This document shows, one piece after another, positions 21,951 through 58,088 of a stretch of 64,000 nt of DNA. Position numbers and translations under genes: made by a program. Numbering within the stretch: the first letter of the stretch is position 1; every line of letters starts with the position of its first letter. This DNA comes from Rhodobacteraceae bacterium IMCC1335. GTDB taxonomy: Bacteria; Pseudomonadota; Alphaproteobacteria; Rhodobacterales; Rhodobacteraceae. The stretch covers positions 2,963,001-3,027,000 of the forward strand of contig CP046864.1 of NCBI GenBank assembly GCA_039640495.1, given 5' to 3'. The notes under the pieces were generated by a model. The model did not search any database and was not told where the DNA came from. It saw only the letters and a program-made list of their open reading frames with translations.

Positions 21951-22795
21951 CGCGGGCTCAGCTTCGTCAGGCTATTATTCATACGCGTCAAAAGCTGGAT
22001 ATTTCTGAGCGGCGTGCTTGCGCTGTTCTGGATGTAGCCCGCTCAAGTCTGCGCTATCAAGCCAAATCAGTAGATGACAACGAACTACGCTTGGCGATGA
22101 TCCGGCTGGCCAAGCAATATGGGTGGTATGGTTATAGGAAAGTCACAGCTCTGCTGCGCATGGAAGGCTGGCGTGTTAACCACAAGAGGATCGAGCGCTT
22201 ATGGATTGAAGAAGGTTTGCAGCTGCCGCGCCGGCACAACAAGCGCAAACGGCTTTATCATAAAGACAGCTCCATCATCAGGCTGCGGCCCACACACCCC
22301 AACCATATTTGGGCGATCGACTTTGTGCACGATAAGCTTAGCAATGGGCGCAGCTATAAAATGCTCACGGTTCTAGATGAATATACCCGTGAAGCGCTCT
22401 GCGTGGCAGTGAGACCCAAAATGAATGCGAACGACGTTTTGGAGACACTGCACCCGCTGCTGATCAAACATGGTAAGCCAGAGTTTATTCGCTCTGACAA
22501 CGGACCCGAGTTCATTGCCACGCATCTGCAGGACTGGCTGAAGAGGATCGGCATCAAACCAATGCAAATCTATCCGGGCAGCCCTTGGGAAAATGGATAC
22601 AACGAACGCTTTAACGGCACCTTGCGAAAAGAAGTGCTCAACGCCGAATGGTTTCACACCACACGGCAAGCCCAGGTCGCTATCAATGTTTGGCTCAGGC
22701 AATACAACCAGTTCAGACCTCACCATGCATTGAACATGCGCCCACCCGTCCCAGAAACCTTATTAGAGAAACCAAAAATCAATGGACGAATATAG
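21941..22795 (+). CDS. IS3 OrfB, DDE integrase-fold transposase
   Basis: The frame opens without ATG at about 21941 (GLTRAQLRQAIIH), as expected for a frameshift product; an internal ATG lies at 22091. HTH_21-like segment (YGYRKVTALLRMEGWRVNHKR in part), then the rve core with catalytic Asp in WAIDFVHD, Asp in IRSDNGPEF and Glu in ENGYNERFNGTLR. It appears intact, so the element may be active. Confidence 0.9.
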   Translation, partial: AGLTRAQLRQAIIHTRQKLDISERRACAVLDVARSSLRYQAKSVDDNELRLAMIRLAKQYGWYGYRKVTALLRMEGWRVNHKRIERLWIEEGLQLPRRHNKRKRLYHKDSSIIRLRPTHPNHIWAIDFVHDKLSNGRSYKMLTVLDEYTREALCVAVRPKMNANDVLETLHPLLIKHGKPEFIRSDNGPEFIATHLQDWLKRIGIKPMQIYPGSPWENGYNERFNGTLRKEVLNAEWFHTTRQAQVAINVWLRQYNQFRPHHALNMRPPVPETLLEKPKINGRI

Positions 22796-22815: not shown

Positions 22816-23871
22816 ATGTGCCTAGGTTTTAAAAATCACATCCTTTCCATCTATTTCGATGTTAGCACAAGGTATTTACGCAGAATTATGTTAGAAAGAA
22901 AGCGTGACAACTTTAGTTTCATTACTGGCCAAAAATATAGAGACCGCATCTCTCGTCATCTGAGAGCAGATGTCCAATCTGTTGTTTCAAAAACTCTGCA
23001 TGAGCCACCCAGTGTTTATGGTATTAACCGAACAACTTGGACAATAAACTTGTTGACGTCGACCATAAACCAAGGCTCATCGGGACTAGATTTTAAAGTT
23101 ACTAGATCAAATGTTTCCCATGCTATTAGAGCAATGGGATATAGATTTAAGAAGACCAGGGAGGTGTTAACAAGTAATGACCCCAACTACAAAGAAAAAC
23201 TGGCAAAGATTACTAGAACACTTCAACGCCTTGGCCCTGCTGACCGTTTTTTTTCAATAGATGAATATGGCCCAATCTCAGTTAGACATCGAGGTGGAAA
23301 ATTACTCACGCCCAATGGCGTCAGACCAGTTGTACAACAGTATCAGGAGTCGAAGGGTAAAATAATAATGACTGCGGCTTTAGAATTGGTAAATAACCAA
23401 GTATCATATTTTTACAGTCAAAAAAAAGACAGCGAAGAGATGGTCAAATTAGCAGACTTCCTTCAAAAAAAATACCATCATTGCAGATTTTTATATTTTT
23501 CTTGGGATGCAGCATCGTGGCATTCGTCACGCTATTTTTTATCTGAACTAAAAAAATTAAATGATCCAGTTTATAGAAACGAAAATCAACTGCCGAAGAT
23601 TATTTTGAGGCCATTACCTGCTAGGGCACAATTTTTAAATGTCATAGAATCTGTTTTCAGTGGAATGTCACGTGCTGTGATCCAAAATAGCAACTATTCG
23701 TCAACAAAAGAAATGAAGGAGGCGATTGATGCATATTTTTCAGAACGAAATGATTTTTTCAGGCGTTACCCTCACAGGGCTGGTAATAAAATATGGGGTA
23801 AAGAGCGTGTAAAGCCCTCATTCAGCGTTTCTAATAATTGTAAAGATACCTTCGTTAAATACAGGCACTAA
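22816..23871 (+). pseudogene. IS630-family transposase, 5'-truncated by the IS3 element
   Basis: The frame continues out of the IS3 end; ATG 22816 is only an internal methionine. Helix-turn-helix remnant (ILSIYFDVSTRYLRRI), then the IS630 DDE domain: FFSIDEYGPISVRHRGG (Asp), YFSWDAASWHSSRYFL (Asp), FLNVIESVFSGM (Glu). Roughly the first few tens of residues are missing compared with family members. A left end of this element is not found on the far side of the IS3, so a deletion accompanied the insertion. Confidence 0.75.
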
Positions 23872-23875
23872 TTGC

Positions 23876-24286
23876 AACCCTGCTTAACCTACTGATGTAG
23901 GCGATGTAGGCTGTGTAGCCCTTTCTGAAAACTTTCTACTGGGATTTCTGTGGGGACTTTTCGGATTGGGCTACATTCCCTACATTCCCTACATTGTTTT
24001 CTTCTTCTACGAGAAAGAGGAATACTAATAGACCATCCAACCCTCGTAGGTACACAGTCAGCCTCATCCCCCGGCATAATCAAAACCGTCAACTTGACGA
24101 AAACCATAACCCAATCTCAGGTCAGGCTCATATACGGCAACCCTAGGTAGGCCTTGGCGCTCGCCCCCAAGCTTTCGTAGACCAAACCGTAGACCAAAAT
24201 ACGCCTGTTGCAGGAACCGAAATGAGGCAGTAGCCTTGTTTTGTGGGGTTAATGCGTTGGGTCGTTTCCTACCGGAGGAACCATCA
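23876..24286. mobile_element. E0: worn end of an E2-type unit
   Basis: No gene. 23890-24000 contains TGTAGG repeats facing three CTACATTCC repeats (imperfect inverted arrangement). From about 24040 the DNA parallels the right arm of E2: CATAACCCAATCTCAGGTCA here versus CATAACCCAATCGCAGGTCA at 33075, and GACCAAACCGTAGACCAAAA (24180-24199) versus GACCAGATTACTGACCAGAA (33151-33170), both followed by ATACGCCT. It ends at the first core (24287). I read it as the diverged arm of a fourth unit, clipped on the left by IS630/IS3 insertion. Confidence 0.55.
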
Positions 24287-24469
24287 CCTCCCCGGTGCGC
24301 CACTAACCTACATAACGCATTGTAATACCTCACTATTTTGACTTTAGTAGTGAGCCGTAGACCATGCTGGCAACCAAATCTAACAGTTACACATTCCAAA
24401 AGAGCGGCGTCTGGTATTTCTCCCGTCGAGTTCCCGCAGACTTACGGCGGCATTACAGAACGGGTAGGA
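24287..24469 (+). repeat. E1 left inverted repeat (183 bp)
   Basis: Reverse complement of 26500-26682 with no difference that I can see. It begins with the core in plus orientation, then the integrase promoter/arm, then the integrase 5' codons. Position pairs sum to 50969, showing no gap. Confidence 0.9.
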
Positions 24470-24474
24470 CTTGA
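24364..24474 (+). pseudogene. Truncated integrase 5' end inside E1 left repeat
   Basis: ATG 24364 reads 35 codons identical to the start of the integrase at 25436-26605 (SYTFQKSGVWYFSRRVPADL) and then ACT TGA. It exists because the inverted repeat extends into the gene. It may still produce a short peptide containing part of the arm-binding domain. Confidence 0.85.
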
Positions 24475-24481
24475 AACAGCT

Positions 24482-25420
24482 TTACGTTATTGATTGTATG
24501 AATGAACTCTGCTTTGCAACAGCCTCGTGAAATAATTCGGAATGAGGATATATCGCACCAAAATGACCCCCATCAATTTCATAAAACTCTTTTTCACTTC
24601 CTATCCGGCTATACACCTCTAGCTGCACATCCCGGCTGATGAGTGGCATTTCATCATCCTTGCCAATCATCATTAAAACTGGCGCACTTATAAACGGAGC
24701 CGTAAGCAACGGGGTAAAAGGAACCTCCGTTCGAGGTATTACCCTCGTCACCTGATTTTCCCAACCACTATTAAATTTTCCACCCTGTTCTATAAACCAT
24801 TTAAAAGCTTGTATCGGCGTTAGCAAAGAAGGATTAGCTTCCTGATCAGCAGACACAACTGGCATCGGGCCTTCTCTAGACAAATCTTCCAACTGATCAA
24901 ACTTCCCTTGGGCAAATATGGTCTTAAAGGTTTTGAAATCTTTTTTAGGGTTTTCAAAGTTAACAATTCTTAATCCACAGGAAGCGGTGAACGAAACTAT
25001 ACCCGCTAACCCCTCGACCAATGCACCAACTGTAAGAACAAGCATGCCTGCAAAACTATCGCCCCAAAGGATAATTTTTCCACTGTGATCACCATCTCTT
25101 TTTTTAACAAACGAAACAGCAGCGGCAATTCCCTTTGCTTGGAGCCAAGGATTGATTAGTTGACGCTCCTTTCCACCACTCCTTCCAAAACCAGCATGAT
25201 CAAATAAAAAGACATTAAAGCCCTTCTTTTGAAATTCAGATGCATAGTCAGACAAACACATTGTTATTGTGGCGGAGGTGCCATGACACATTATGATGCA
25301 TGGGGCTTCGGACTTAGTTTGAGCCGAATACCAGCGACCCCTTAGCGTTGAACCTTCTGAAATAAACTCTTTTTCAACAAACATCCGGTCGCTCCTGTTT
25401 TGATTATGGAGACGTCTCAT
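24482..25420 (-). CDS. Alpha/beta hydrolase (E1 cargo)
   Basis: 312 residues. Alpha/beta-hydrolase features: oxyanion-loop CIIMCHGTSATI, FLFDHAGFGRSGG, nucleophile elbow WGDSFAG, late Asp in MIGKDDEMPL and His in IDGGHFGAIYP. The first 12 residues may be a false extension (MFVEKEF is an alternative start). It resembles serine hydrolases of the dienelactone-hydrolase/peptidase type acting on esters or peptides in the cytoplasm. It is the single cargo gene of E1, 8 bp from the truncated integrase fragment and 15 bp from the integrase stop. Confidence 0.8.
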   Translation of the reverse strand: MRRLHNQNRSDRMFVEKEFISEGSTLRGRWYSAQTKSEAPCIIMCHGTSATITMCLSDYASEFQKKGFNVFLFDHAGFGRSGGKERQLINPWLQAKGIAAAVSFVKKRDGDHSGKIILWGDSFAGMLVLTVGALVEGLAGIVSFTASCGLRIVNFENPKKDFKTFKTIFAQGKFDQLEDLSREGPMPVVSADQEANPSLLTPIQAFKWFIEQGGKFNSGWENQVTRVIPRTEVPFTPLLTAPFISAPVLMMIGKDDEMPLISRDVQLEVYSRIGSEKEFYEIDGGHFGAIYPHSELFHEAVAKQSSFIQSIT

Positions 25421-25435
25421 TTAACCCTTAAATTG

Positions 25436-26605
25436 TCAAAAAGTTTTCGTGCTGTGATCAAACAAAGTTTTACGCAACCAGGCCGCTAGGATATCAGGCG
25501 GATATCCGTTTCCATAGCTATTTCCAACGCCGTGCGTTAGCCAGCCACCAATCTGGTCGATAATCTCGCTGGGGCATTCTACCGCCCTCAACCTATCACG
25601 CATTGAATGCCTGAAGCTGTGAATTGTGTAACCTCGCCCAATCTTGGATTTAAGCCACTTGTTCAAGGCAGCACTTGCTGAGTTGGCGTTAGTTCTTTTG
25701 CCATCATTGTAGTTGGGGAAAGCAAACCGACTTTCTATCGATTGGGCTAATATCCGTTCTGCGGCCCACTTAGACGAGCCAACAAGTGGAACCAGCCTTT
25801 CACTGCTGGAAGTTTTCAAGGATCGCCAAGGATGCGGCGTGATGTTGACGCAAAGAATACCATCCCGTTCTACGAAATCTGACCTTAACAGCCCAGCGCC
25901 TTCACCCAAGCGTATGCCGGTGTCAGCTATCAGAGCAATAAGCCACCGCTTTTCGTCATCAGCTTTATAACACTTCTGTTGAACCTTCTCGATGTCTTCA
26001 GGCTTTACGGGAATGCGTTTCTTAACCCCTTGGCTTTGATCAAAATAGACGTTTGAGAATGGGTTGACGATTGATAGCCCAAACTCACTCAGGGCCAAGT
26101 TTATAACGGCTCTCACAGTACCAAATATCCTTGCTACAGATGCTCCGTTAAGACCTTTGGCGAATAGATAATCACGGAACTTCGTAGCATCTGAGCGGGT
26201 GTACCCTTGGAGATTCTTCATCCCGCAACTATCGATTAAGTAGCCGCAGCCTCGCTTCAACGTGGCTTCAAAAGCGGGTGGCTTATTCTGCCCTTTCAAT
26301 CGGAGGTATAATACCACTGCATCAGATAGGCTTGGCCCCTGACCAACATTCTTTTCTGCAGGCTCCTCCAATAAATGCTTACCCGGAATATCATCTGACG
26401 ACATTCGCATAATAAGCCAATGCCGATCCAATTTAGCAGCATCGCTCATTGCCCTAACCCGAGCATCCCTGATGGATTTGGTTCTTAACGAGTAGGCAAT
26501 CCTACCCGTTCTGTAATGCCGCCGTAAGTCTGCGGGAACTCGACGGGAGAAATACCAGACGCCGCTCTTTTGGAATGTGTAACTGTTAGATTTGGTTGCC
26601 AGCAT
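25436..26605 (-). CDS. Tyrosine integrase of E1
   Basis: 389 residues. N-terminal arm-binding type domain (GVWYFSRRVPADLRRHY), core-binding domain, catalytic domain with Arg in DTGIRLGEGAG, HSFRHS (His-x-x-Arg), IGGW and Tyr in GNSYGNGY. It is homologous along its length to the E3 integrase at 35419-36618. The gene starts 60 bp from the core at 26665, and TGGTCTACGG (26605-26614) overlapping its start also occurs, reversed, in E0. All catalytic residues are present, so it is probably active. Confidence 0.9.
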   Translation of the reverse strand: MLATKSNSYTFQKSGVWYFSRRVPADLRRHYRTGRIAYSLRTKSIRDARVRAMSDAAKLDRHWLIMRMSSDDIPGKHLLEEPAEKNVGQGPSLSDAVVLYLRLKGQNKPPAFEATLKRGCGYLIDSCGMKNLQGYTRSDATKFRDYLFAKGLNGASVARIFGTVRAVINLALSEFGLSIVNPFSNVYFDQSQGVKKRIPVKPEDIEKVQQKCYKADDEKRWLIALIADTGIRLGEGAGLLRSDFVERDGILCVNITPHPWRSLKTSSSERLVPLVGSSKWAAERILAQSIESRFAFPNYNDGKRTNANSASAALNKWLKSKIGRGYTIHSFRHSMRDRLRAVECPSEIIDQIGGWLTHGVGNSYGNGYPPDILAAWLRKTLFDHSTKTF

Positions 26606-26682
26606 GGTCTACGGCTCACTACTAAAGTCAAAATAGTGAGGTATTACAATGCGTTATGTAGGTTAGTGGCGCACCGGGGAGG
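26500..26682 (-). repeat. E1 right inverted repeat (183 bp)
   Basis: Partner of 24287-24469. It contains the integrase first codons and upstream region and ends in the core AGTGGCGCACCGGGGA, here in minus orientation and shared with the E2 left repeat. Confidence 0.9.
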
Positions 26683-27442
26683 TAGTTCTACTCCTAATAC
26701 CTGCGCTGAGTTACTGCTAACATCCTGATATCATTAGGTACAGCATCCCTGAGTTCATCACAATAAGGCGTATTCTGGTCAGTAATCTGGTCAGTAATCG
26801 CTGGGGGGGCCAGTGCCATGGGGGTATACCGGGGTACTGTACTCAGCCATGACCTGCGATTGGGTTATGGCAACTGTCATCGGCTTGGATCAGGCTGTTT
26901 CATCGGGGCTTGACAGTTTTATCTGTGCGGTAGGATGGCGGCTCTGTGCATCACTCAAGCAATTATCCAAGCTGATACACGATCCTGCTGCTTGATGCTG
27001 ATTATCCCAGAATCTTGTTAATGCTTCATCAGGGTATCGGGCATGGGTCATAGAGGGCTATGGGGTTGCTATACCTGTGGTCTGCCAGCGATTAGTCTTG
27101 TAATCTCGTAAACCACTTTGGGCTAGGTTTCGGGGTTAGTTGACCGCCCTGCTGATCCTTAAAGGGACAGGTTCCTATAAGTACCTATAGCACCTTGTCA
27201 CATTAACGGTATTACTCCCCCGAAACTTCAGGCTCAGGCCCGTAGAGATACTTCAGATTAAACTCAGTGATAGCACCTTCACCCCAGCCAGCGGTTAAAT
27301 AGGCTTCGGCTTCTTCATCAGTCCACGGGGTATAGATGCTGGTGGTGGGGGAGCCTGAATAGTCTTTGGGTAGGAAAAGGTGTTGGTGGGTGGTCTTACG
27401 TTTATCACCAGCTTTAAAGGTGGCTATTTGAGTAGCGGTGCG
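26665..27442 (-). repeat. E2 left inverted repeat (778 bp)
   Basis: Reverse complement of 32501-33278 (position pairs sum to 59943, no gaps). It seems identical except for about 14 substitutions clustered near 27017-27095 and 27154-27170. It contains the core, arm sites (26773-26792), a dyad-rich segment (27175-27215) and the 3' end of the primase-helicase gene. The sulfotransferase stop codon falls inside it. Apart from that and the dead gene end, no gene is convincing. Confidence 0.85.
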
Positions 27443-29454
27443 GAACGAGAATATAAATCATCGAAAACGTCATCAAGATATGGTTTAAATTTCTTCCATT
27501 GTGAAGAACTGCCTTTATAAACTTTATTTCTTACTTGGTCGTTCGAAACTGTTTTTATAATTCTAGGGTTTTTATGAGGAGAAAGGCAAGCCTCCTCCCA
27601 ATCCAGCCCAAGATATTCGATAAGTTTATTTGTTTCTATATTTTGCTCAGAAGTTAAATGTTCATAATTCAAATTATAAATTTTGTTGTGGTAACTTTTT
27701 GTCCAAAACGACATTAAGTCTTTGTATAGCAGAAAATAATCGACCGTGTTTTGTAAATCGCAGCTATATCCCAGAGCCTTTGAACGAAAATGGTTTTTGA
27801 AATTTGACCAACAAGTAGCGGCTGGATCACGCATGACATGGATGATTTTTGCTTCGGGGAAAGCTTTACAAATTAATCCAATATGCAAAAAATTGTGAGG
27901 GGTTTTATCGGTTACAAATGGCGTGCCAGCGGCGTGCTGAACGATACTTTGAAGGTAATTATCTCTAAACTTCATAATAATTTCTTCTGTGACATTTGTG
28001 TATCCAATGCTTATTGGAGCGCCTTGTTTTATAAGATAGGGAGCCTCTCCCGCAGCTGATATTTGGGAGTGACTAGACAGTATTTGTTCTACTAGGGTCG
28101 TTCCCGAACGTGGCATTCCAAGTATAAAAATGGGTGTGGCTTTCAAAAGCCTTTCGATTTTTGGTCTAGGTTTTTTAATTTTGTTGTGATGAGCTTTAAT
28201 TTTTTCAAATAGAGTTTGGTCATTTTTAAATTCGTAACCTAAGCTTTCCTGCCTAATTTTACCGGCTGCTTTATAACTTTGAAAGGCTAAATCAAGATTA
28301 TTAGTGTCCTCACACATTTTTCCGTAAGTATAGTACAATAGACACAGGTTTTCTTTGCTCTGGTCAGCCCCGCAGATCAATTTTTTTACTAAATTTAGTT
28401 GTGGATCATTTATAGTATATTTTTTTAAGTAACTTGAATTCAGATGAGCTGCTCCATTATCTGGCTCTAATTCGATAGCAGTTTTAAAGGCTTTTAATGC
28501 ATTTTCTGTTTGACCTAAATCTCTGTAAATATTTCCTTTACCATTCCATGCGTCAGCACATTGTGGATTAATCTCTAAGGCTTGATCATATGCTTCAAAT
28601 GCTAGTTTTTCTTGATTACGGTCTCTCAATAAATCCCCAATATTTTTATGTGCCTCAAAATAATCTGATTTCAGATTGCAGGCTTCTTTAAAAGCTTCTA
28701 GTGCCTCATCGTCATTCTCCAAAAATCTGAGTGAAATGCCTTTATTGAAATAAGCACCTGCAAAGTATGGAGCGTATTTTATTGCATTATTATAAGCGTC
28801 GATAGATTGAAAAACTTTTCCAATATGAAATAAGCTTGTTCCCAAATTATTATAAGCTTTTGAAAATTTTGGATCAAATTTAATAGCTTGAGTAAAAGCA
28901 TCAACAGATTTATCAAATTTTTTTTGTAGTTGAAGAATGACGCCCTTGACATTGTATGCATCGGCAAACGATGAATTTAATTCGATTGCCTTCTCACATA
29001 AAATCAGAGCTTCCTCAAATTCACCAATTTCTTTAAGTACTACTGCTTTATTATTATAAGCATCAGCAAATTTTGGGTTCAAGAGTATGGCTTTATCAAA
29101 AGCGTCATGCGCAATTGAAAACCTTGTTAGCTGAGCAGATGTAATGCCTAAAATGTGCCATATTTGAAAGGCGTTTGGAAATTGTTTCGAGAGCCTTGTG
29201 GCCATATCAAATGTGGCTTCAAATTCCCCAATATTAAATTTTTTCAGAAGACTATTTATGGCATTCTGAAAAGATGTTCCTGCTGGTTTTTCTTGCATAT
29301 TTTTTGATAGAGCAGCTAAACCCTCTTTCGCCCTTATATTTTTTGGATAAGAATTTAGTATGGTCGAATAAATTTTCTTAGCTTCCGCAATTTCACCTTT
29401 TTTGGCATGCGACTTTGCTTTTAAAAGTGCCTGATCAATTGACAGTTTTGCCAA
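27424..29454 (-). CDS. TPR-sulfotransferase fusion (E2 cargo)
   Basis: 676 residues with TTG start 29454 behind AAGGAAG. Residues 1 to about 400 are at least nine TPR units (for example AYNNKAVVLKEIGEFEEAL, AWNGKGNIYRDLGQTENAL). The C-terminal 260 residues form a sulfotransferase domain with the PAPS 5'-phosphosulfate loop (IFILGMPRSGTTLVEQIL) and the 3'-phosphate region near VMRDPAATCWSNF. It likely moves sulfate from PAPS to a protein, glycan or small acceptor held by the TPR part. The last codons (SAPLLK*) are provided by the E2 inverted repeat, so the 3' end of this cargo was fixed when it was captured. Confidence 0.85.
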   Translation of the reverse strand: MAKLSIDQALLKAKSHAKKGEIAEAKKIYSTILNSYPKNIRAKEGLAALSKNMQEKPAGTSFQNAINSLLKKFNIGEFEATFDMATRLSKQFPNAFQIWHILGITSAQLTRFSIAHDAFDKAILLNPKFADAYNNKAVVLKEIGEFEEALILCEKAIELNSSFADAYNVKGVILQLQKKFDKSVDAFTQAIKFDPKFSKAYNNLGTSLFHIGKVFQSIDAYNNAIKYAPYFAGAYFNKGISLRFLENDDEALEAFKEACNLKSDYFEAHKNIGDLLRDRNQEKLAFEAYDQALEINPQCADAWNGKGNIYRDLGQTENALKAFKTAIELEPDNGAAHLNSSYLKKYTINDPQLNLVKKLICGADQSKENLCLLYYTYGKMCEDTNNLDLAFQSYKAAGKIRQESLGYEFKNDQTLFEKIKAHHNKIKKPRPKIERLLKATPIFILGMPRSGTTLVEQILSSHSQISAAGEAPYLIKQGAPISIGYTNVTEEIIMKFRDNYLQSIVQHAAGTPFVTDKTPHNFLHIGLICKAFPEAKIIHVMRDPAATCWSNFKNHFRSKALGYSCDLQNTVDYFLLYKDLMSFWTKSYHNKIYNLNYEHLTSEQNIETNKLIEYLGLDWEEACLSPHKNPRIIKTVSNDQVRNKVYKGSSSQWKKFKPYLDDVFDDLYSRSAPLLK

Positions 29455-29557
29455 ACTTACTTCCTTCTTTATCCAAATCTCATTATGGGAGTATGAGCCA
29501 TTGGTAAATTCATACTGCCAAGCCTATACTTTAGCAAAAGTTTTGAAAAGGTTGGCC

Positions 29558-32500
29558 ATGAGCGACGACATTAGTATCCTTACCTCCGCCAATCATACTT
29601 CTCTTGTTAAAACCTTCAGTGGCCCTGATCTGAAAAAGCAATCATTTGCAATTGGTAAAGAGTTCAACGTAACTGAAGAACCAGTTTCTAATCTTCAAAA
29701 CCTATCTAAGGTATTGCACAAGCTTGAGAATGATCCCACACGCACGATCATCAGAGGATCACTGATCGAAGGCAAAACCAACCCCGTCCCACGCAATAAA
29801 ACTACCTTCACTGCTACACTTCGCCAATGGTGCATGATCGACATCGATAGCCTTGCTTGGGATGGAGATATTAACGATCAACAGGCAATGCTATCATATG
29901 CCATTGAGCAGCTTCCAATCGAGTTCCAATCTGTTGACTGCTGGTATCATTTTTCATCCAGCATGGGAATCAAGGCTGGTATCAGGGTGCATCTATGGTT
30001 CTGGCTGGAAAGACCCTGCTCTGATGATGAAATGAAGGCGTGGCTGTCTGGCTGCCCTGTTGATCTGCGGCTGTTTAATCCCATCCAAATCCACCTGACT
30101 GCCAATCCTCGCTTTATAGCTGGTGCTATTGATCCGTATCCCAATCGGTCTGGTCTGTTTGAAGCTGGTAACGGGGTATCAATAGTTCCTGTTCCAGCAA
30201 ACCTCGCGTCTAGAACCGCCGTTACTCAGGCCGCATCACGACAACGATCCAGTGATAAATCAGGACTACTAGACCCTGCCGATATTACCCGTGATCCAGA
30301 TACGGGTTTGGCAATAAATGGTAGGGAGCAATTGATGTTCCTTCTATCCAATGAGGTTATGCGTGAATTGGTGACTGCCAAGCACACACCCAGCGAAGAA
30401 GAAGTTACCACTGTCCTTTGGAGCCGTTTTTGCGAAGAAGCAGATATAAGCATTGTCTCTGAGCGTGGTGCTTGGACAATCGCTGATGCAGCATCAAAGG
30501 CCAAAGCACGGTTACAGGAACTCGAAAGGGGTGCTTATGACTTTGTGTCCCGTTCAGACAGAACAACGCTTGTAGCTGGTACAGGCAAAGCAGAGCGTCC
30601 AAAGCTTGTTGGAACCATTCAGGCACAATTAGAACTCAATAACATTTTGGATAAGTTCTTTGGGGATTTAACGGAAGGGTCTAAGCCAAGAGCCGCTATT
30701 CGCCTTACAATGGGCGCAGGTAAAACCAAAAAGACCATAACCCATCTAAAAGCCTATCTTGAGGGCAAATACCGTCAGAAGATCGAAGTCTATGTTCCCC
30801 GTCATGATCTGGCAGATGAGTGGACGAAAAGCTTAGAAGGCATAAATGCCAATGTCATTCATGTTTATCCCCGTACTGGTGGCGAGTGGGATAATGAGGC
30901 CAGAGCATACAAACACCCGATTATGTGCCAAAGGGCTGATTATGTCAGGGATTTGGAAGAGAAGGGCCACAGCATCTATGGCAATGCCTGTCTTAGCCGA
31001 ACCTCTAGAGAGCAATGCAGCTTCTTGAGCAGTTGTGCCTATTTAGATCAGTTCAGGCAAACGAGCAGCGATATAGGCGTTGAGAATACGATCCGCATCT
31101 ATACCCACGCCTCGTTGTTCCTGAGCAGAAACGAGTTTGAGCGCCAAACAGAGCCTGATTTAGTCATAATAGATGAAGCGTTTCTGTCCTCTGCAGTTAG
31201 TAATATGCCATCCATCCCAGTTGGTGAAGTAACTCAGCATGTTCGTGTAAACGGCATTCCCAATTTAGGCTTCGATCTGTTGGAGTGCCTAACCGAACAT
31301 CAAGGTGATTTATCTTACCTGCGAGCCAAAGACATAGGAGCCTTTGAGTTTAACGCCGTATCAATTGAAGGGTTAAATCCAGCTACTCCATTCAGTGCTG
31401 ACACTGCGCAAAGCCGCAACGTGAGATCCGCCAAGCAATATAAGGCTCTGACCAAATTACTTGAGATCGCAGCACGGGAGATTGAGGATCAGGGTAGAGA
31501 CAGCTTCGGGCAGTTGGCCTATAACCGCCGAAAGAACGAGATCGTAATCTGTGAGCATAAGCCAACAAGAGTGCCTCGCACCACGCCAGTACTTTATTTA
31601 GACGCAACGGCTGACTCCATCATTACAGAAGCCTACCTACCAGCCTTGCAACATCATCAGATCGATGTTCGCCAATTGGCTGTGGTCAGTCAGGTATATG
31701 ATCGTACAGGCAGCAATAGCTTTTGGAACAACAGGATTGGACAAGAGCAACAGAACTTATCTGATCCATCCTATGATCCTCAGCACAACGACATAGCAGC
31801 CCTGATTACGATCCTGAATGAGTGGGTGAAGGCTGGAGAAAGTCCGCTACTCGTGGCGCATAAAGACTTATGTGATCAGTTGCGAGTTCACCCCAAGCTT
31901 GATGAAGGTGTAGCAGTGGCGCATTTTATGTCCTTGCGTGGGTCAAATGCTTATGAGGATAAGTCAGTGATCTTCATCACAGGCAGGAACCAACCGCCTT
32001 TGGATGATATTGAACGACAAGCAAGAGCCATCTTTGGTAACTCAGGCAATCCTCTGGGATATGATGACTTAGAAAACCTACCTTCGGATCAGGTTGAATA
32101 TTGGCTGTCTAAGCGTAGCCCACATACTGCTTCGGCTATTACAATTCCTGCCTTCAGTGATCCCCGTATTGAGGCAGTGCAAAAGCAAATCAGGGAAGCA
32201 GAGACAGTTCAGGCAATAGCCCGATTACGATTAGTATGGGCTGAATATCAGAAACGTGTATTCTTGCTTTCAAACCTGCCTGTCGAGATGCCAGTGGATC
32301 ATCTGATTGAGTTTAATGATCTGATGCCTGACAGGCTTGAAATGGAACTGATCAAAAAGGGTGATATTCCGCTGACAACGCTAGGATTGGAAAAGATGCG
32401 GCCTGATTTGGAATTATCTAAAGAAGCGATCAAGAAGTTAGTGCAACGCTCCAAAGCCTCCAACCCAAAGCGGCTTTTAACACAACTCCCTGATCTTGTT

Positions 32501-32731
32501 CGCACCGCTACTCAAATAGCCACCTTTAAAGCTGGTGATAAACGTAAGACCACCCACCAACACCTTTTCCTACCCAAAGACTACTCAGGCTCCCCCACCA
32601 CCAGCATCTACACCCCGTGGACTGATGAAGAAGCCGAAGCCTATTTAACCGCTGGCTGGGGTGAAGGTGCTATCACTGAATTTAATCTGAAGTATCTCTA
32701 CGGGCCTGAGCCTGAAGTTTCGGGGGAGTAA
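29558..32731 (+). CDS. Primase-polymerase/helicase fusion of E2
   Basis: 1057 residues from ATG 29558 (AAAAGG upstream); the frame is open back to TTG 29501. The N-terminal third resembles an archaeo-eukaryotic primase: acidic motif CMIDIDS near 105, HFSSSMGIKAGIRVHLWFWL near 150, then ATP-helicase motifs with Walker A TMGAGKTKKTI near 390 and Walker B DLVIIDEAFL near 550, and YLDATAD near 685. It would prime and unwind DNA to replicate the element. Its last 77 codons lie in the inverted repeat. No integrase is present in E2, so this is the replication half of a presumed ancestral integrase-plus-primase element. Confidence 0.75.
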   Translation: MSDDISILTSANHTSLVKTFSGPDLKKQSFAIGKEFNVTEEPVSNLQNLSKVLHKLENDPTRTIIRGSLIEGKTNPVPRNKTTFTATLRQWCMIDIDSLAWDGDINDQQAMLSYAIEQLPIEFQSVDCWYHFSSSMGIKAGIRVHLWFWLERPCSDDEMKAWLSGCPVDLRLFNPIQIHLTANPRFIAGAIDPYPNRSGLFEAGNGVSIVPVPANLASRTAVTQAASRQRSSDKSGLLDPADITRDPDTGLAINGREQLMFLLSNEVMRELVTAKHTPSEEEVTTVLWSRFCEEADISIVSERGAWTIADAASKAKARLQELERGAYDFVSRSDRTTLVAGTGKAERPKLVGTIQAQLELNNILDKFFGDLTEGSKPRAAIRLTMGAGKTKKTITHLKAYLEGKYRQKIEVYVPRHDLADEWTKSLEGINANVIHVYPRTGGEWDNEARAYKHPIMCQRADYVRDLEEKGHSIYGNACLSRTSREQCSFLSSCAYLDQFRQTSSDIGVENTIRIYTHASLFLSRNEFERQTEPDLVIIDEAFLSSAVSNMPSIPVGEVTQHVRVNGIPNLGFDLLECLTEHQGDLSYLRAKDIGAFEFNAVSIEGLNPATPFSADTAQSRNVRSAKQYKALTKLLEIAAREIEDQGRDSFGQLAYNRRKNEIVICEHKPTRVPRTTPVLYLDATADSIITEAYLPALQHHQIDVRQLAVVSQVYDRTGSNSFWNNRIGQEQQNLSDPSYDPQHNDIAALITILNEWVKAGESPLLVAHKDLCDQLRVHPKLDEGVAVAHFMSLRGSNAYEDKSVIFITGRNQPPLDDIERQARAIFGNSGNPLGYDDLENLPSDQVEYWLSKRSPHTASAITIPAFSDPRIEAVQKQIREAETVQAIARLRLVWAEYQKRVFLLSNLPVEMPVDHLIEFNDLMPDRLEMELIKKGDIPLTTLGLEKMRPDLELSKEAIKKLVQRSKASNPKRLLTQLPDLVRTATQIATFKAGDKRKTTHQHLFLPKDYSGSPTTSIYTPWTDEEAEAYLTAGWGEGAITEFNLKYLYGPEPEVSGE

Positions 32732-33278
32732 TACCGTTAATGTGACAAGGTGCTATAGGTACTTATAGGAACCTGTCACAATAAGGATTAGCAGGGCGGT
32801 CAACTAACCCCGAAACCTAGCCCAAAGTGGTTTACGAGATTACAAGACTAATCGCTGGCAGACCACAGATATAGCAACCCCATAACCGGCTATGGCCCAC
32901 GCCCCGTAGCCTGATGAAGCATTAACAATATTCTGGGATAATCAGCATCAAGCAGCAGGATCGTGTATCAGCTTGGATAATTGCTTGAGTGATGCACAGA
33001 GCCGCCATCCTACCGCACAGATAAAACTGTCAAGCCCCGATGAAACAGCCTGATCCAAGCCGATGACAGTTGCCATAACCCAATCGCAGGTCATGGCTGA
33101 GTACAGTACCCCGGTATACCCCCATGGCACTGGCCCCCCCAGCGATTACTGACCAGATTACTGACCAGAATACGCCTTATTGTGATGAACTCAGGGATGC
33201 TGTACCTAATGATATCAGGATGTTAGCAGTAACTCAGCGCAGGTATTAGGAGTAGAACTACCTCCCCGGTGCGCCACT
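32501..33278 (+). repeat. E2 right inverted repeat (778 bp)
   Basis: Partner of 26665-27442. After the primase-helicase stop it holds the stem TGTGACA..TGTCACA (about 32740-32780), the arm GACCAGATTACTGACCAGAA (33151-33170), and the core CCTCCCCGGTGCGCCACT (33261-33278), shared with E3. The 758 bp between 32732 and the cyclase start have no convincing gene. Confidence 0.85.
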
Positions 33279-33379
33279 ATCATCAGACTTAAGCAGTCTA
33301 CCGATAGATAACCTACTGATAACATTCTCATAAGTAACTTTGCCTTAGTATTGGGCTGGAGAGAATGTTGACCAGATTA
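33263..33379 (+). repeat. E3 left inverted repeat (117 bp)
   Basis: Reverse complement of 36604-36720, pairs summing to 69983. It ends in ATGTTGACCAGATTA, the first five integrase codons, after which the two copies diverge. Confidence 0.9.
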
Positions 33380-33489
33380 TTTGTCTCAATATCTGGAATG
33401 TCCTGCGACTTTTTAACATGCTGCAGTATCACACTGGACTATATGAAGCCCAAGTGTAATCATTCTTCTAGAAAAACGTGGGGCTTTTC

Positions 33490-35430
33490 ATGTCTACTGA
33501 AGTAATTGACCGGAAGATTGCAGTGATCCTTGTGGCTGATGTTGTTGGCTACAGTAAGCATATGGAGAAAGACGAAGACGCTACCTTAAAAGCTTATTCT
33601 GAATGTGAGAAAATCCTGAAGAGCCTTTTGGATAAAAGAAGGGGTTCAATTTTCAATACGGCGGGAGATTCAGTGCTAGCTGAATTTCCAAGTGCAGTAA
33701 ATGCGGTTGAATGTGCAGTAGAATTTCAAACCAAGATTAATGAACGAAATCAATCTGAAAAGACCTCAACAAAACTTGAATACAGGATCGGCATCAACAT
33801 TGGTGACGTTGTATCTAGAGAAGGTAATTTATTAGGAGATGGAGTTAATATAGCTGCTCGCCTTGAGGCGTTATCTCAGCCAAACGGCGTATGTATATCA
33901 AAAAGCATCTACGACTTGGTGGTCCCCAAAACAAAGATGACATTTAACGATCTGGGCGTTCAAAAGGTCAAACAGAACCAATTTCATGCATACGATGTCT
34001 TACTTAATCCTTCTCAGAAACGAAAAATTAAATCTAAACGAAGCTTTTCGTCATCATTGATTATTGGATCGGTTGCATTTTTAACGGCTGTCGTTTTGGC
34101 AATCGGTTTTGTCATTAATCAACAAAATGCAGATAAAGCCAATGACTTTGAAGGAAGAATCCTTCTAGTCAAACCATTCGAATATTTAACTGATGGTGAA
34201 AACAAAGAGTTTTTGGCTGATAGTATGTTAAGTGTTTTTGTGAGTGGTTTGTCTGGTTATGAGAATTTAAGGGTACTCTCAAAGAATACATCGCAGATCA
34301 TTCAAGAACAGAATTTGAGCGATGAGGAAATTTTGTCTAAATATGGCGCACGTTTTGTGCTAGATGGTTCAATTACTGTATTTGGAAATGATATGCGGAC
34401 CAGCGTTGGCATACGCAACCTTGAAGATGGCTCAGTCATTTTTTCGGACTTTAAAAATACCAAAACCAAAGACTTTTTCAAAATACAAGACGAACTGGTG
34501 ATTTCAGTTTTGAATAGTTTTGAACTCGAGGAAGACAAAGTTCGAGTTTCCAATGAAGGCGTAGAAACCATTGAAGAATTAAGATTATTGCATTTTGCTG
34601 CCAAGGAGCGAGAAAAATGGTCAAGAGACTCATATCCTCCGTATCAAGAAGCCGTAGAAAAACTATATGCGATAAACCCAGAGGGTTACACTCACAATGT
34701 CAGTCAGGCTTGGAAGTATCATTATAAAATGCGATTGGGTTTGTGCAGGGGGTCTGGTAATGATCAATTCACCGGCGGGACCATTTGTATGTTGGACGCT
34801 ATAAAATTTGCAAAAAAAGCAATAGAAATTAACCCAAATAAAGCAGATGCGTACCTCGCAAAAAGTTATTTCTTGTCATCCCTTTATTTACTAAATTTGA
34901 AAACTGATAACAAAATGAAGTGGGGAGGCTTAGAGAGTGCTTTAGAATCTGCTGAAAAAGGCTATCAGCTTATCACTGATGATGCTTACCAATTTGGCTT
35001 AGCAGGAGAAGTATTTTCGTTTACTAATAACTTTAGAAAAGCTACAGATTCATTTGCTCGTTTGTTTGAAATAGACGAAAATCCAGGAGATACCTTCACA
35101 GCATTTTATATGAACACAAGTTATTTGAACGAAGATTTCGATACGTCTGAACAACTTGCCTTAAGAATAATTTCTAAAAATAAATCTCGAGAAAAAGATG
35201 AGTGCTTTAAACCATACTGCGGCAACGCCGGGTATGCTTATATCTTTGCGATATATGCAGCCAAAGCTCGAGGCGATGACCAAAAAGTTAACCAATATTT
35301 GTCTGAGTTCAGGACTGTACGAAATAAGTATACACGAGAAATGTGGTTATCAGGGGATAATCCCTTTCACTTTATATGGAACGAAAAAGCAGTAAAAATT
35401 ACTGAATTAATGGACAGTTTAGGTTGGTAA
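33490..35430 (+). CDS. Class III adenylate/guanylate cyclase with TolB-like and TPR domains (E3 cargo)
   Basis: 646 residues from ATG 33490. Residues 10-170 form a class III cyclase domain: AVILVADVVGYSKHME (metal-binding Asp), FNTAGDSVLAEFPSAV (second Asp), IGINIGDVVSREGNLLGDGVNIAARLE (transition-state Asn/Arg). One membrane span near 185-205 (SLIIGSVAFLTAVVLAIGFVI) follows. After it comes a TolB/FlgO-like region, then TPR-like helices. It probably makes cAMP at the membrane, with an extracytoplasmic sensor part. A 3' fragment of a paralogue lies at 18910-19301. Such cyclases are numerous in marine alphaproteobacteria. Confidence 0.88.
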   Translation: MSTEVIDRKIAVILVADVVGYSKHMEKDEDATLKAYSECEKILKSLLDKRRGSIFNTAGDSVLAEFPSAVNAVECAVEFQTKINERNQSEKTSTKLEYRIGINIGDVVSREGNLLGDGVNIAARLEALSQPNGVCISKSIYDLVVPKTKMTFNDLGVQKVKQNQFHAYDVLLNPSQKRKIKSKRSFSSSLIIGSVAFLTAVVLAIGFVINQQNADKANDFEGRILLVKPFEYLTDGENKEFLADSMLSVFVSGLSGYENLRVLSKNTSQIIQEQNLSDEEILSKYGARFVLDGSITVFGNDMRTSVGIRNLEDGSVIFSDFKNTKTKDFFKIQDELVISVLNSFELEEDKVRVSNEGVETIEELRLLHFAAKEREKWSRDSYPPYQEAVEKLYAINPEGYTHNVSQAWKYHYKMRLGLCRGSGNDQFTGGTICMLDAIKFAKKAIEINPNKADAYLAKSYFLSSLYLLNLKTDNKMKWGGLESALESAEKGYQLITDDAYQFGLAGEVFSFTNNFRKATDSFARLFEIDENPGDTFTAFYMNTSYLNEDFDTSEQLALRIISKNKSREKDECFKPYCGNAGYAYIFAIYAAKARGDDQKVNQYLSEFRTVRNKYTREMWLSGDNPFHFIWNEKAVKITELMDSLGW

Positions 35431-36618
35431 AGAATTTATTCTGGTTAACCAGTTATTAAGAACTTGAACTGAATATCCCTCACCATACCCCTGCCCTACT
35501 CCCTCAGTTGCCCAACCGCCTATTTGATCAATCACATCAGACGGGCATTCTACCGCCCTCAGACGATCTCTCATCGAATGCCGGAAGCTATGCATTGTAC
35601 AACCCTCAGGCACGTACTGATGCAGCCATTTGTTTAATGCGGCACTAGCTGAGTTAGAGTTGGTAGCGTCTCTCCTGTTGTATCTTGGAAAAGCATAGGG
35701 GCTGTCCGGAAAGGTCTCTGAGAGCCTCTGAGCGGCCCATAGAGAGGCTCCTACAAGCGGTATATCTCGTTTGCTGCCAGATGTCTTTAGCGGCCTCCAG
35801 GGATGCGGTTTAAGGCTTATGTGAGGTATGTCTGCATCTAGGATTATATCACTCTTCAGCAGCCCAGCGCCTTCTGCCAAGCGCATACCCGTATCTGAGA
35901 CCAAAGCCACCAGCCACCTTAGGTCATCATCCATTAAGCGGCACTGGTTTTGGACTTTGCGGATGTCTTCTATCGGTATGGGAAGCCGCTTACTTACTCC
36001 AGCCGATTTATCAAAGTACATACCTACAAAGGGGTTCTTGAGATCAAGCGCATACTCAGAGATGGCGAAGTTAAAGACGGCTCTGATAGAACTGATTACC
36101 CTGCCAACGCTCGAGCCAACCAGCCCCTTGGCAATGAGGTAATCTCTATAACGCAGAGCATCTGCTCTTGTGTACTCAGCTAAGGTCTTGGCTCCACAGG
36201 CATCTACAAGATAAGTACAGGCTCTTTGGGTCGCAGCCTCAAAGCTCTTTGGCTTACCAGCACCCTTCTGCGTGACATAGGTTTCTAAAGCGTCAGAGAG
36301 CGAAATACATTGCTCAATGGCAGTAGACACATCAAGCTGAGTATTCCGGGCAAATGAACCATATCCCGACTTTAACAAACTACGCCCAATAAGATCAGGG
36401 TCGGTCATTCTAAGATGAGACCAGTATTCATCTAATTTAGCCGCAGCAACCAAAGCCCTTGATTTAGCAGTCTGCGCAGACCTCGTCTTAAGGCCCTGAA
36501 CAATACGAGGATAGGAGTAATGGCTCAAAAGATCAGCGGGAACCCGTCTTGAGAAGTAGTAATACCCAGCACGGTTAAACGTGTAAGGGACTTTTTTGGT
36601 CAGTAATCTGGTCAACAT
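35419..36618 (-). CDS. Tyrosine integrase of E3
   Basis: 399 residues, homologous to the E1 integrase (GYYYFSRRVPADLLSHY; DTGMRLAEGAG; HSFRHSMRDRLRAVECPS; IGGWATEGVGQGYGEGY). The catalytic Arg, His-x-x-Arg, Trp and Tyr are present. Codons 2-8 are themselves built from the repeat TGACCAGATTACTGACCA, the same motif found in both arms of E2, so the gene start overlaps its likely binding site. It ends inside the cyclase 3' end. Confidence 0.9.
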   Translation of the reverse strand: MLTRLLTKKVPYTFNRAGYYYFSRRVPADLLSHYSYPRIVQGLKTRSAQTAKSRALVAAAKLDEYWSHLRMTDPDLIGRSLLKSGYGSFARNTQLDVSTAIEQCISLSDALETYVTQKGAGKPKSFEAATQRACTYLVDACGAKTLAEYTRADALRYRDYLIAKGLVGSSVGRVISSIRAVFNFAISEYALDLKNPFVGMYFDKSAGVSKRLPIPIEDIRKVQNQCRLMDDDLRWLVALVSDTGMRLAEGAGLLKSDIILDADIPHISLKPHPWRPLKTSGSKRDIPLVGASLWAAQRLSETFPDSPYAFPRYNRRDATNSNSASAALNKWLHQYVPEGCTMHSFRHSMRDRLRAVECPSDVIDQIGGWATEGVGQGYGEGYSVQVLNNWLTRINSLPT

Positions 36619-36720
36619 TCTCTCCAGCCCAATACTAAGGCAAAGTTACTTATGAGAATGTTATCAGTAGGTTATCTATCGGTAGACTGCTTAAGTCTGA
36701 TGATAGTGGCGCACCGGGGA
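36604..36720 (-). repeat. E3 right inverted repeat (117 bp) with outermost core
   Basis: Partner of 33263-33379. It ends at AGTGGCGCACCGGGGA (36705-36720). The flank beyond (TGCGACTGAAC) matches none of the arms and should be the original target sequence. Confidence 0.9.
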
Positions 36721-37253
36721 TGCGACTGAACTTAAATAAGGTTGTTTATTATCAATACCTTATTGAGATGCTATTTTGGAAAAGCGGTCCCAAAAGCGGT
36801 CCACGGTGACTCACCTGCCAGGTCTGGCTTCCTACCTCTGCCGTCATTAGCTGCAGTGAGCTCAAAGGTCAGCTATGCGGACAAAACCGACCTTGGACTT
36901 TCAACCTTCGCTAACGCAGCATTCTTTCGCAGGTGCAGCAGTGTTCTTTTGGCAGTGCAACGGCTTTCCCCATACCAGCCACTCGGAGAGGCCAGAACCG
37001 AGAATTCCCAAACTACCCATTTGCTGCAAACGGACATAGTAACTAGTTGGCGGACGACAAGCCATTGAGAGGCGCAAAGCTGTCGATTTTCTGGGACAAG
37101 AATCGCAAACGGGCCGTGGACCAAACCTGACCGTTAATGGACGAGTTGATGCAAGAAATTGGTAAAAACGAGCGAAACCAGACGTGGAAAGGTGGCCAAT
37201 AAAGGCCGTAGTCTGTTGAAAGTGATGGTAATTTTGAAAATTTAATACATTTA
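36721..37253. other. Flank between E3 and the sulfatase locus
   Basis: No supported gene. AAAAGCGGTCCC is tandemly repeated at 36780-36802, and GGTCCCAAAAGCGGTCC (36786-36802) is identical to 3237-3253 next to the frameshifted integrase. It is probably an att or arm remnant of that integrase family. The rest is degenerate intergenic DNA. Confidence 0.4.
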
Positions 37254-57659: not shown

Positions 57660-58088
57660 ATGCTGACAATTGGAAGTTTGGGAAAGAAGACCGGAACAAA
57701 AGTTCAGACTGTCCGGTATTACGAACAGATCGGCCTGATGCCCGAACCAGGTCGCACCGAAGGCGGGCAGCGGCGCTACGGGGATGCGGAAGTTGACCGC
57801 TTGTCCTTTATCCGGCACGCACGCCAGTTGGGGTTTCCCCTTGAAGCGATCCGCGAGCTTCTCGATCTCAGTGATAATCCCGACCGCTCCTGCCATGAGG
57901 CGGATTCCATCGCCCGGCGGCAACTCAAGCAGGTACAACTAAGGATGGATCGGCTGAAAGCGCTACGCACAGAGTTGAAGCGCATGATCCACGAATGCAG
58001 CGGAGGCAATACGGCGGACTGCAAGGTTCTCGAGGTCTTGCGCGATCACTCAGAGTGTCTGACCGACCACGATGAAATTGGGGCTTAA
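57660..58088 (+). CDS. MerR-family metal regulator (ZntR/CadR-like)
   Basis: 142 residues: winged-helix motif (GTKVQTVRYYEQIGLMPEPGR in part, TVRYYEQIGL), dimer coiled coil, and a metal loop with Cys residues in NPDRSCHEAD, IHECSGGNTADCKVLEVL and a later HSECL. The Cys spacing fits Zn/Cd/Pb sensing. It would untwist the 19-bp promoter facing left and perhaps that of the P-ATPase gene. Confidence 0.88.
   Translation: MLTIGSLGKKTGTKVQTVRYYEQIGLMPEPGRTEGGQRRYGDAEVDRLSFIRHARQLGFPLEAIRELLDLSDNPDRSCHEADSIARRQLKQVQLRMDRLKALRTELKRMIHECSGGNTADCKVLEVLRDHSECLTDHDEIGA

Follow-up and report, generated by a model that had tools for sequence, protein, structure and literature searches.

What is the chain of abutting inverted repeats in the middle of a 64,000-nucleotide stretch of the genome of Rhodobacteraceae bacterium IMCC1335, and what kind of mobile DNA does it represent? 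The genome is a single contig of 3,735,584 bases (CP046864.1), and the stretch, here called the window, is its 2963001-3027000. A preliminary description of the window had presented the chain as one shufflon-like array of cassettes. Judged from sequence, it is a complete two-unit element, which we call E3+E2, plus an older, truncated one, E1+E0, and not one shufflon. We lean toward reading E3+E2 as a self-contained integrative element at a transfer RNA (tRNA) gene for arginine, with a circular form on the plan of the yeast 2-micron plasmid. The layout suggests that such elements can flip and perhaps multiply after leaving the chromosome, and similarly built relatives occur in other bacteria, most of them marine.

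The chain is organized around a core, AGTGGCGCACCGGGGA, with exact copies at 24289-24304 (-), 26665-26680 (+), 33263-33278 (-) and 36705-36720 (+). A search of the window allowing up to three mismatches returned five matches against 0.36 expected, a count reached in 0 of 100 shuffles; the fifth, at 57769, has three mismatches. Between the cores lie three units, each with its own inverted repeat: 184 base pairs (bp) at 100% identity in E1 (24286-24469 / 26500-26683), 779 bp at 98% in E2 (26664-27442 / 32501-33279) and 117 bp at 100% in E3 (33263-33379 / 36604-36720). Adjoining units have a core in common, so there is no spare DNA in between. The alternation of the cores and the three abutting units had been recognized in the preliminary description, which swapped the signs for the string as written, placed the cores a few bases off and gave slightly different repeat lengths.

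Read from the tRNA side, E3+E2 consists of core 36705, an A-unit, the inverted core 33263, a B-unit and the direct core 26665. The A-unit (E3) runs from A arm through integrase and cyclase-domain cargo to the inverted A arm, and the B-unit (E2) from B arm through a primase-like gene and a TPR-sulfotransferase to the inverted B arm. On this parse of the sequence, the natural unit is a pair of A-unit and B-unit between direct cores, with a single inverted core inside. What had been taken for one chain is two stacked elements, at a tRNA target that had been overlooked. Their parts are as follows (ORF, open reading frame; aa, amino acids; attP, attachment site).

36705..36720, + strand: core 1 of E3+E2, tRNA-proximal; now also the far end of the next stacked island
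36604..36720, + strand: A arm of E3, beside the integrase 5' end; 117-bp, 100% inverted repeat
35419..36618, - strand: tyrosine recombinase, the integrase of E3+E2, with DUF6538 and Phage_integrase domains (domain search)
33478..35430, + strand: A-unit cargo of E3, an adenylate/guanylate cyclase-domain protein (domain search)
33263..33379, + strand: A arm of E3, inverted copy
33263..33278, - strand: inner inverted core of E3+E2, the putative second attP
32501..33279, + strand: B arm of E3+E2, inner copy; 779-bp, 98% inverted repeat, containing the 3' end of the primase ORF
29501..32731, + strand: primase-helicase-like replication protein of E2, 1076 aa (PHROG, Pfam, related genomes)
27424..29454, - strand: B-unit cargo of E2, a TPR-sulfotransferase protein (domain search)
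26664..27442, + strand: B arm of E3+E2, outer copy
26665..26680, + strand: core 3, the outer end of E3+E2; also the core of E1 that was once tRNA-proximal
26500..26683, + strand: A arm of E1, beside the integrase 5' end; 184-bp, 100% inverted repeat
25436..26605, - strand: tyrosine recombinase of the older E1+E0, with DUF6538 and Phage_integrase domains (domain search)
24482..25420, - strand: E1 cargo, an alpha/beta hydrolase (domain search)
24286..24469, + strand: A arm of E1, inverted copy
24289..24304, - strand: inner inverted core of E1+E0
23095..24288, + strand: E0, a truncated B-unit including a transposase-like gene (matches the L133 B-unit inner end); its own third core was not found

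The N-terminal 200 residues of the E2 ORF match a phage primase family (PHROG, E 7e-22), and its score against the helicase-type ResIII domain, 21.6 bits, is slightly below the Pfam cut-off of 22.5. In an alignment of 13 integrase sequences, R246, K278, H343, R346, W369 and Y378 are invariant, and we take these to be the catalytic residues. We read E1 as the A-unit of the older element and E0 as its cut partner B-unit. E0 had been described as a remnant with the primase-helicase arm, like E2; past its first bases, it instead matches the B-unit of L133, a locus of another branch. The end at core 24289 aligns with the inner end of that B-unit at 72.6% over 1208 columns, and the transposase-like genes share 65% amino-acid identity over 344 residues. 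A short way beyond E0 is an ORF (22091-22795) whose integrase core is of the IS3 type.

The core is the 3' end of tRNA-Arg(ACG), because ARAGORN puts this gene on the minus strand at genome positions 3052485-3052561, on the core copy at 3052483, 52.8 kilobases (kb) to the right of the chain and outside the window. Further exact copies lie at genome positions 2932173 and 2951790, and copies with one mismatch at 2258025, 3027469 and 3052483. The same sequence (TGCGAC...) follows four plus-strand cores, at 2932173, 2951790, 2999705 and 3027469; we read these ends as the far ends of repeat-free islands, whose integrase end recurs at 90-92.5% identity. The sequence of the region suggests that elements have piled up at a single tRNA gene, with the window chain inside this stack.

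Two other loci carry A-units away from this stack. L014 (genome 2258025-2261790) is decayed, with a left core of tRNA-Arg type and a right core of tRNA-Thr(TGT) type; its right arm ends in bases that match the Thr-type arm of genome G047, and ARAGORN found no tRNA in the 16 kb that this locus spans. It resembles a mosaic, or an element caught in the course of retargeting. L016 (genome 1993407-1996492) is a second E3-like A-unit, at tRNA-Arg(CCG), with 94% arms, a broken integrase frame and an approximately 70-bp B-like arm past the inner core. About 1 kb from tRNA-Arg(CCG), at L016:11594-11785, is an array of an 8-base repeat (GGCAACAC / GGGAACAC).

Species genomes were scanned with an integrase alignment and the best 80 of 426 relatives were kept; because sampling was by integrase similarity, the proportions below apply to that set. 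We scored an A repeat where an inverted repeat of at least 25 bp and 80% identity flanks the integrase. It is present in 68 of the 80 loci, and in 64 of those it reaches at least 60 bp and 85%. A tRNA gene stands at the integrase 5' end in 65 loci, 56 loci have both tRNA and A repeat, and 16 tRNA anticodons are used as targets. The record titles are mostly Rhodobacterales. Where a tRNA is adjacent, the integrase 5' end faces it in 65 of 66 loci. The sole A-unit with its integrase 3' end at the tRNA (Leu-GAG) is L086, 1-1473, a metagenome bin with odd flanking sequence that is possibly chimeric; L122, a relative, is oriented in the usual way.

A second repeat was found in 13 of the 29 extended or long loci outside the window, and these with the window E3+E2 make a set of 14 elements. 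The inner core is exact over 14 nucleotides in all 14, which follows partly from how the A-units were delimited. The third core is an independent test: it is exact in 12, has one mismatch in one, and in the last (G196) the contig ends exactly on the core. Both repeats and three cores (the third with 0-1 mismatch) occur together in 12 of the 14, including E3+E2 and the element of Ruegeria sp. TM1040. The A arms are 43-262 bp long and 100% identical in 11 of the 14; the B arms are 164-2316 bp long and at least 95.3% identical in 13. Every A-unit in the set contains an integrase, which in nine is the sole ORF of at least 90 aa. On its complete megaplasmid record, the TM1040 element measures 12.8 kb and has 1148-bp B arms, each with a complete BRO gene; its cargo is type I restriction-modification genes. 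Four elements in which both repeats are present lie in the single-contig genome G047, at tRNA-Ser(GGA), tRNA-Thr(TGT), tRNA-Ser(TGA) and tRNA-Leu(CAA); this genome also has an A-unit at tRNA-Leu(CAG). The single-contig G002 has one element, at tRNA-Arg(ACG).

As a control, we took 43 tyrosine recombinase loci (30 of the 90 matches from one scan and 13 from another). Within the 1500 bases on each side of the match that these loci span, the A-type repeat is found in 0 of 42 nonmembers, among them integrases from the repeat-free islands that share this tRNA; the 43rd has the repeat and is itself a family member. Draft contigs do break at repeats, as would be expected if the layout were an artefact of assembly or chimera formation: a contig ends no more than 200 bp past the A-unit's inner end in 32 of 68 cases and at the opposite side in 2 of 68. 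Long repeats such as the B arms collapse in short-read assemblies, which would explain contigs stopping there, and we infer that B repeats are present in many of the 32. An artefact is extremely improbable because independent genomes carry the layout, namely the single-contig G000, G002 and G047 and the complete TM1040 megaplasmid.

A further possibility is a phase-variation or shufflon-like switch, in which flipping of an A- or B-unit alters the expression or joining of cargo genes. Shufflons and other multi-site invertible systems share inverted recombination sites and a site-specific recombinase with these elements, whose cores are inverted, whose cargo lies within the units, whose B-units occur in both orientations, and in 4 of 14 of which an ORF of 100-206 aa spans the inner core. 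Unlike shufflons, the window element shows no gene-end switching, its arms are symmetric, it is mobile, and A-units often hold an integrase only (9 of 14). For E3+E2 we rejected the shufflon reading, originally proposed for the whole array, since no ORF of 100 or more aa crosses any of its cores; a 111-aa frame spans the E1/E0 core. With the A-unit found flipped in only one of 66 loci, we regard such a switch as very doubtful.

The arms and cores bear signs of recombination. When the G047 elements at Ser(GGA) and Ser(TGA) are compared, the stretch that starts at the tRNA and covers the A-unit and the inner arm is collinear (90.4%, 2158 columns), and the B-unit is inverted (89.6%, 5089 columns). 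Flipping of the B-unit is supported by these inversion isomers, a comparison of two different elements in one genome. The earlier suggestion that every unit could in principle be flipped has this support for the B-unit; the A-unit is hardly ever found reversed. Over 660 bp compared, B arms are 96.4-100% identical within an element and 64-90% between elements in five of five elements. Of the 64 longer, better-matched A repeats, 38 have arms without a single difference (100%), and in 57 the two arms agree at 95% or more; for the 45 units that have a relative, the best between-unit identity is 90% at the median and never above 98.5%, with none at 100%. The inner core matches the 14-nucleotide end of the ARAGORN tRNA exactly in 44 of 56 units and with at most two mismatches in 48; of the remaining eight, two lie on contigs that end prematurely. 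In 2308 comparisons with tRNAs that have a different anticodon and at least four differences at the end, none came down to 0-1 mismatch. The 15 units of one arm family, defined by links at 80% or more, include 11 with a tRNA found, and these represent five anticodons. Arms are homogenized, and cores match the local tRNA though an arm family serves five anticodons; some process must therefore copy or exchange core and arm between the ends of each unit.

These observations bear on two further alternatives. The layout may be a passive scar left by head-to-head dimerization of an ancestral circle, after which most of one duplicate disappeared from each half. Homologous recombination by the host would then maintain the identity of the remaining arms and invert the B-unit, leaving the inner core without a role of its own. 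The variable arm ends (in the 13 elements with intact B arms as in the A arms of all 14), the use of the integrase-side attP in nearly all loci and the suitability of long B arms for homologous recombination fit this account. Against it, the layout is kept even where the integrase has no more than 42-62% identity to the E3 integrase, decay would be expected in most lineages for passive duplications, the inner core tracks the local tRNA, and the A arms are short (75-126 bp in 52 of 68) and still 100% identical in 41 of 68. We consider a scar unlikely. Alternatively, the second attP may serve mainly for retargeting, letting the core be rewritten for a new tRNA while one working copy stays. The 15-unit arm family, the tracking inner cores and the Arg and Thr cores at the two ends of L014 speak for this, but it leaves the long, near-identical B arms and the replication-type genes unexplained, and ordinary elements change targets without a second attP. 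As the main role, retargeting seems to us quite improbable.

Mobility is indicated by an empty site. Plasmid p2 of Tritonibacter mobilis A3R06 has the left flank of the TM1040 element (82%, 2515 bases, through tRNA-Phe) followed directly by its right flank (84%, 326 bases, from within the core). The elements resemble tRNA-integrated islands in having the integrase 5' end beside the tRNA, a duplicated tRNA 3' end core at both outer ends, an empty site (seen in one of the two plasmids of T. mobilis that were compared) and stacking at one tRNA. Unlike such islands, including the repeat-free ones stacked here, they have an extra inverted core and inverted-repeat arms around both halves. A plasmid search with the integrase gave a single match, the integrated TM1040 copy, and no free circle. 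The primase gave 24 plasmid matches, all below 60% identity, two of which, on small Roseomonas plasmids, cover over 80% of the length at 22.6% identity. Its phage matches cover at most 20% of the primase, and a related integrase had no phage match at E <= 1e-30. From virus records, nine loci were kept, and in three (L166-L168) the integrase is 55-70% identical; self-comparison of these stretches, which are parts of records, found only the A repeat of L167, whose record is annotated as linear or a fragment. A primase scan of virus records gave 14 distant matches.

Replication-type genes of four types are associated with the B-units, one in each of 13 of the 14 and none in G205 at 774 kb. Five elements encode the 1076-aa primase-like protein. 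In L133, a Prim-Pol gene (Pfam E 1.3e-12) precedes one for a D5-type helicase (3e-19). A protein of 468-534 aa occurs in four elements and one of 634-655 aa in three. For a 512-aa member of the former, modeled with a middling mean pLDDT (a model-confidence score) of 57, PolA-type DNA polymerases appear throughout the 50 Foldseek matches listed; E is <= 0.001 in only 2 of 277 (best, 5.8e-4), with TM-scores of about 0.2-0.3. P4-like satellites also combine an integrase and a primase-helicase at tRNA genes, and the Prim-Pol/D5-type pair of L133 shares this likeness; unlike those satellites, the elements here have an inverted second attP and paired arms. Separately, a 426-aa protein at 553-1833 of the window has a weak 22% aligned identity to the PolA-like B-unit proteins and adjoins the integrase of a repeat-free island.

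The closest geometric counterpart is the 2-micron plasmid. PMC3147054 describes an inverted repeat pair carrying the targets of an element-encoded site-specific recombinase (Flp/FRT) and two structural isomers. It also states that recombination just after one site is replicated can start double rolling-circle replication, of which 2-micron was the first experimental confirmation. Likewise, 12 of the 14 elements have two unique regions split by target-bearing inverted repeats, in a circle that we infer; every A-unit has its own tyrosine recombinase beside the target; and the two G047 serine elements, although different elements, represent both inversion isomers. The present elements differ in being bacterial and integrated at a tRNA gene by the same recombinase, and in having replication-type genes of their own, cargo genes and a third core on integration; amplification is part of the proposal for them.

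We propose the following course of events. The integrase would recognize the tRNA 3' end as its integration target, and because the outer cores are direct, it should also excise a circle. This circle would consist of two unique halves, one (A) bearing the integrase and in some cases cargo, the other (B) the replication gene and cargo, separated by inverted repeats that each comprise an A arm, a core and a B arm centered on a recombination site. Inverted copies of such an attP, with cargo between them, had already been proposed in the preliminary description and are supported here. With the inner core acting as an inverted second attP, the integrase may flip one half relative to the other during replication. 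Since the circle would share the 2-micron geometry, the simplest reading is that the integrase is used the same way: inversion would convert theta replication to the double rolling-circle mode and so increase the number of copies ahead of reintegration. The orientation bias of the A-units implies that integration, or survival afterwards, favors one attP, and integration by the integrase-side attP could cut the integrase off from B-arm signals and lock the element in place. More tentatively, bacterial elements may have independently reached the 2-micron solution as a whole, with inversion-driven amplification that reintegration shuts off and an inverted attP pair that permits core rewriting and tRNA switching.

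Several points weigh against the 2-micron-like reading of E3+E2. The circle, its inversion and its amplification are predictions from sequence, and homologous recombination alone could also homogenize and flip the arms. The near-constant orientation also makes the two attP sites unequal for integration or survival. The A repeat is missing in 12 of the 80 loci, three of which have a contig end within 100 bases of the match and nine of which lack it despite 348 or more bases after the integrase; the control loci reach only 1500 bases to each side. In 16 of the 29 extended loci no second repeat was seen in range, so there are either forms with a single repeat or of conventional build, or the other end lies farther off, and the G205 element at 774 kb has eroded B arms. 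Of 195 related genomes, only 12 contain a relative of the E3 integrase at E <= 1e-40, and 3 contain the E2 primase at E < 1e-100. The PolA-like (family-A DNA polymerase) assignment of the 468-534-aa protein, with one middling model behind it, is a lead only, and the 634-655-aa protein has no replication-family match and is called helicase-like from a Walker-type motif read by eye. The predicted primase structure was unusable (mean pLDDT 37), and no primase relative was found among solved structures. No excisionase stood out, though no search was aimed at one. Only the right flank of the TM1040 element was matched on the T. mobilis F1926 plasmid, with no tRNA-Phe beside it; this plasmid is unreadable as an empty site. 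A search for the G047 Leu(CAA) element gave no clean empty site.

We know of no natural bacterial case of double rolling-circle replication, and a family with 2-micron geometry would make the mechanism testable in bacteria. It would also suggest that selfish DNA has evolved this kind of copy-number control convergently. The layout would account for the many draft contigs that break off at these tRNA islands, and an inverted core just past the integrase is a signature that island-finding software could use. In line with the preliminary description, which knew of no such element class, we found no description of the layout in open-licence papers in PubMed Central (preprints lay outside the search).

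Other arrangements of recombinases were seen alongside the family. On a Roseicyclus contig (L120/L190, 2912-9314), two A-units face each other about 3.3 kb apart, from tRNA-Arg(CCT) and tRNA-Thr(CGT). G000 and G047 contain recurring pairs of tyrosine recombinases of approximately 510 and 192 aa, on opposite strands and about 1 kb apart, with several pairs per genome; examples are G000:C1:2679428-2680944 and G000:C1:2718781-2720297.

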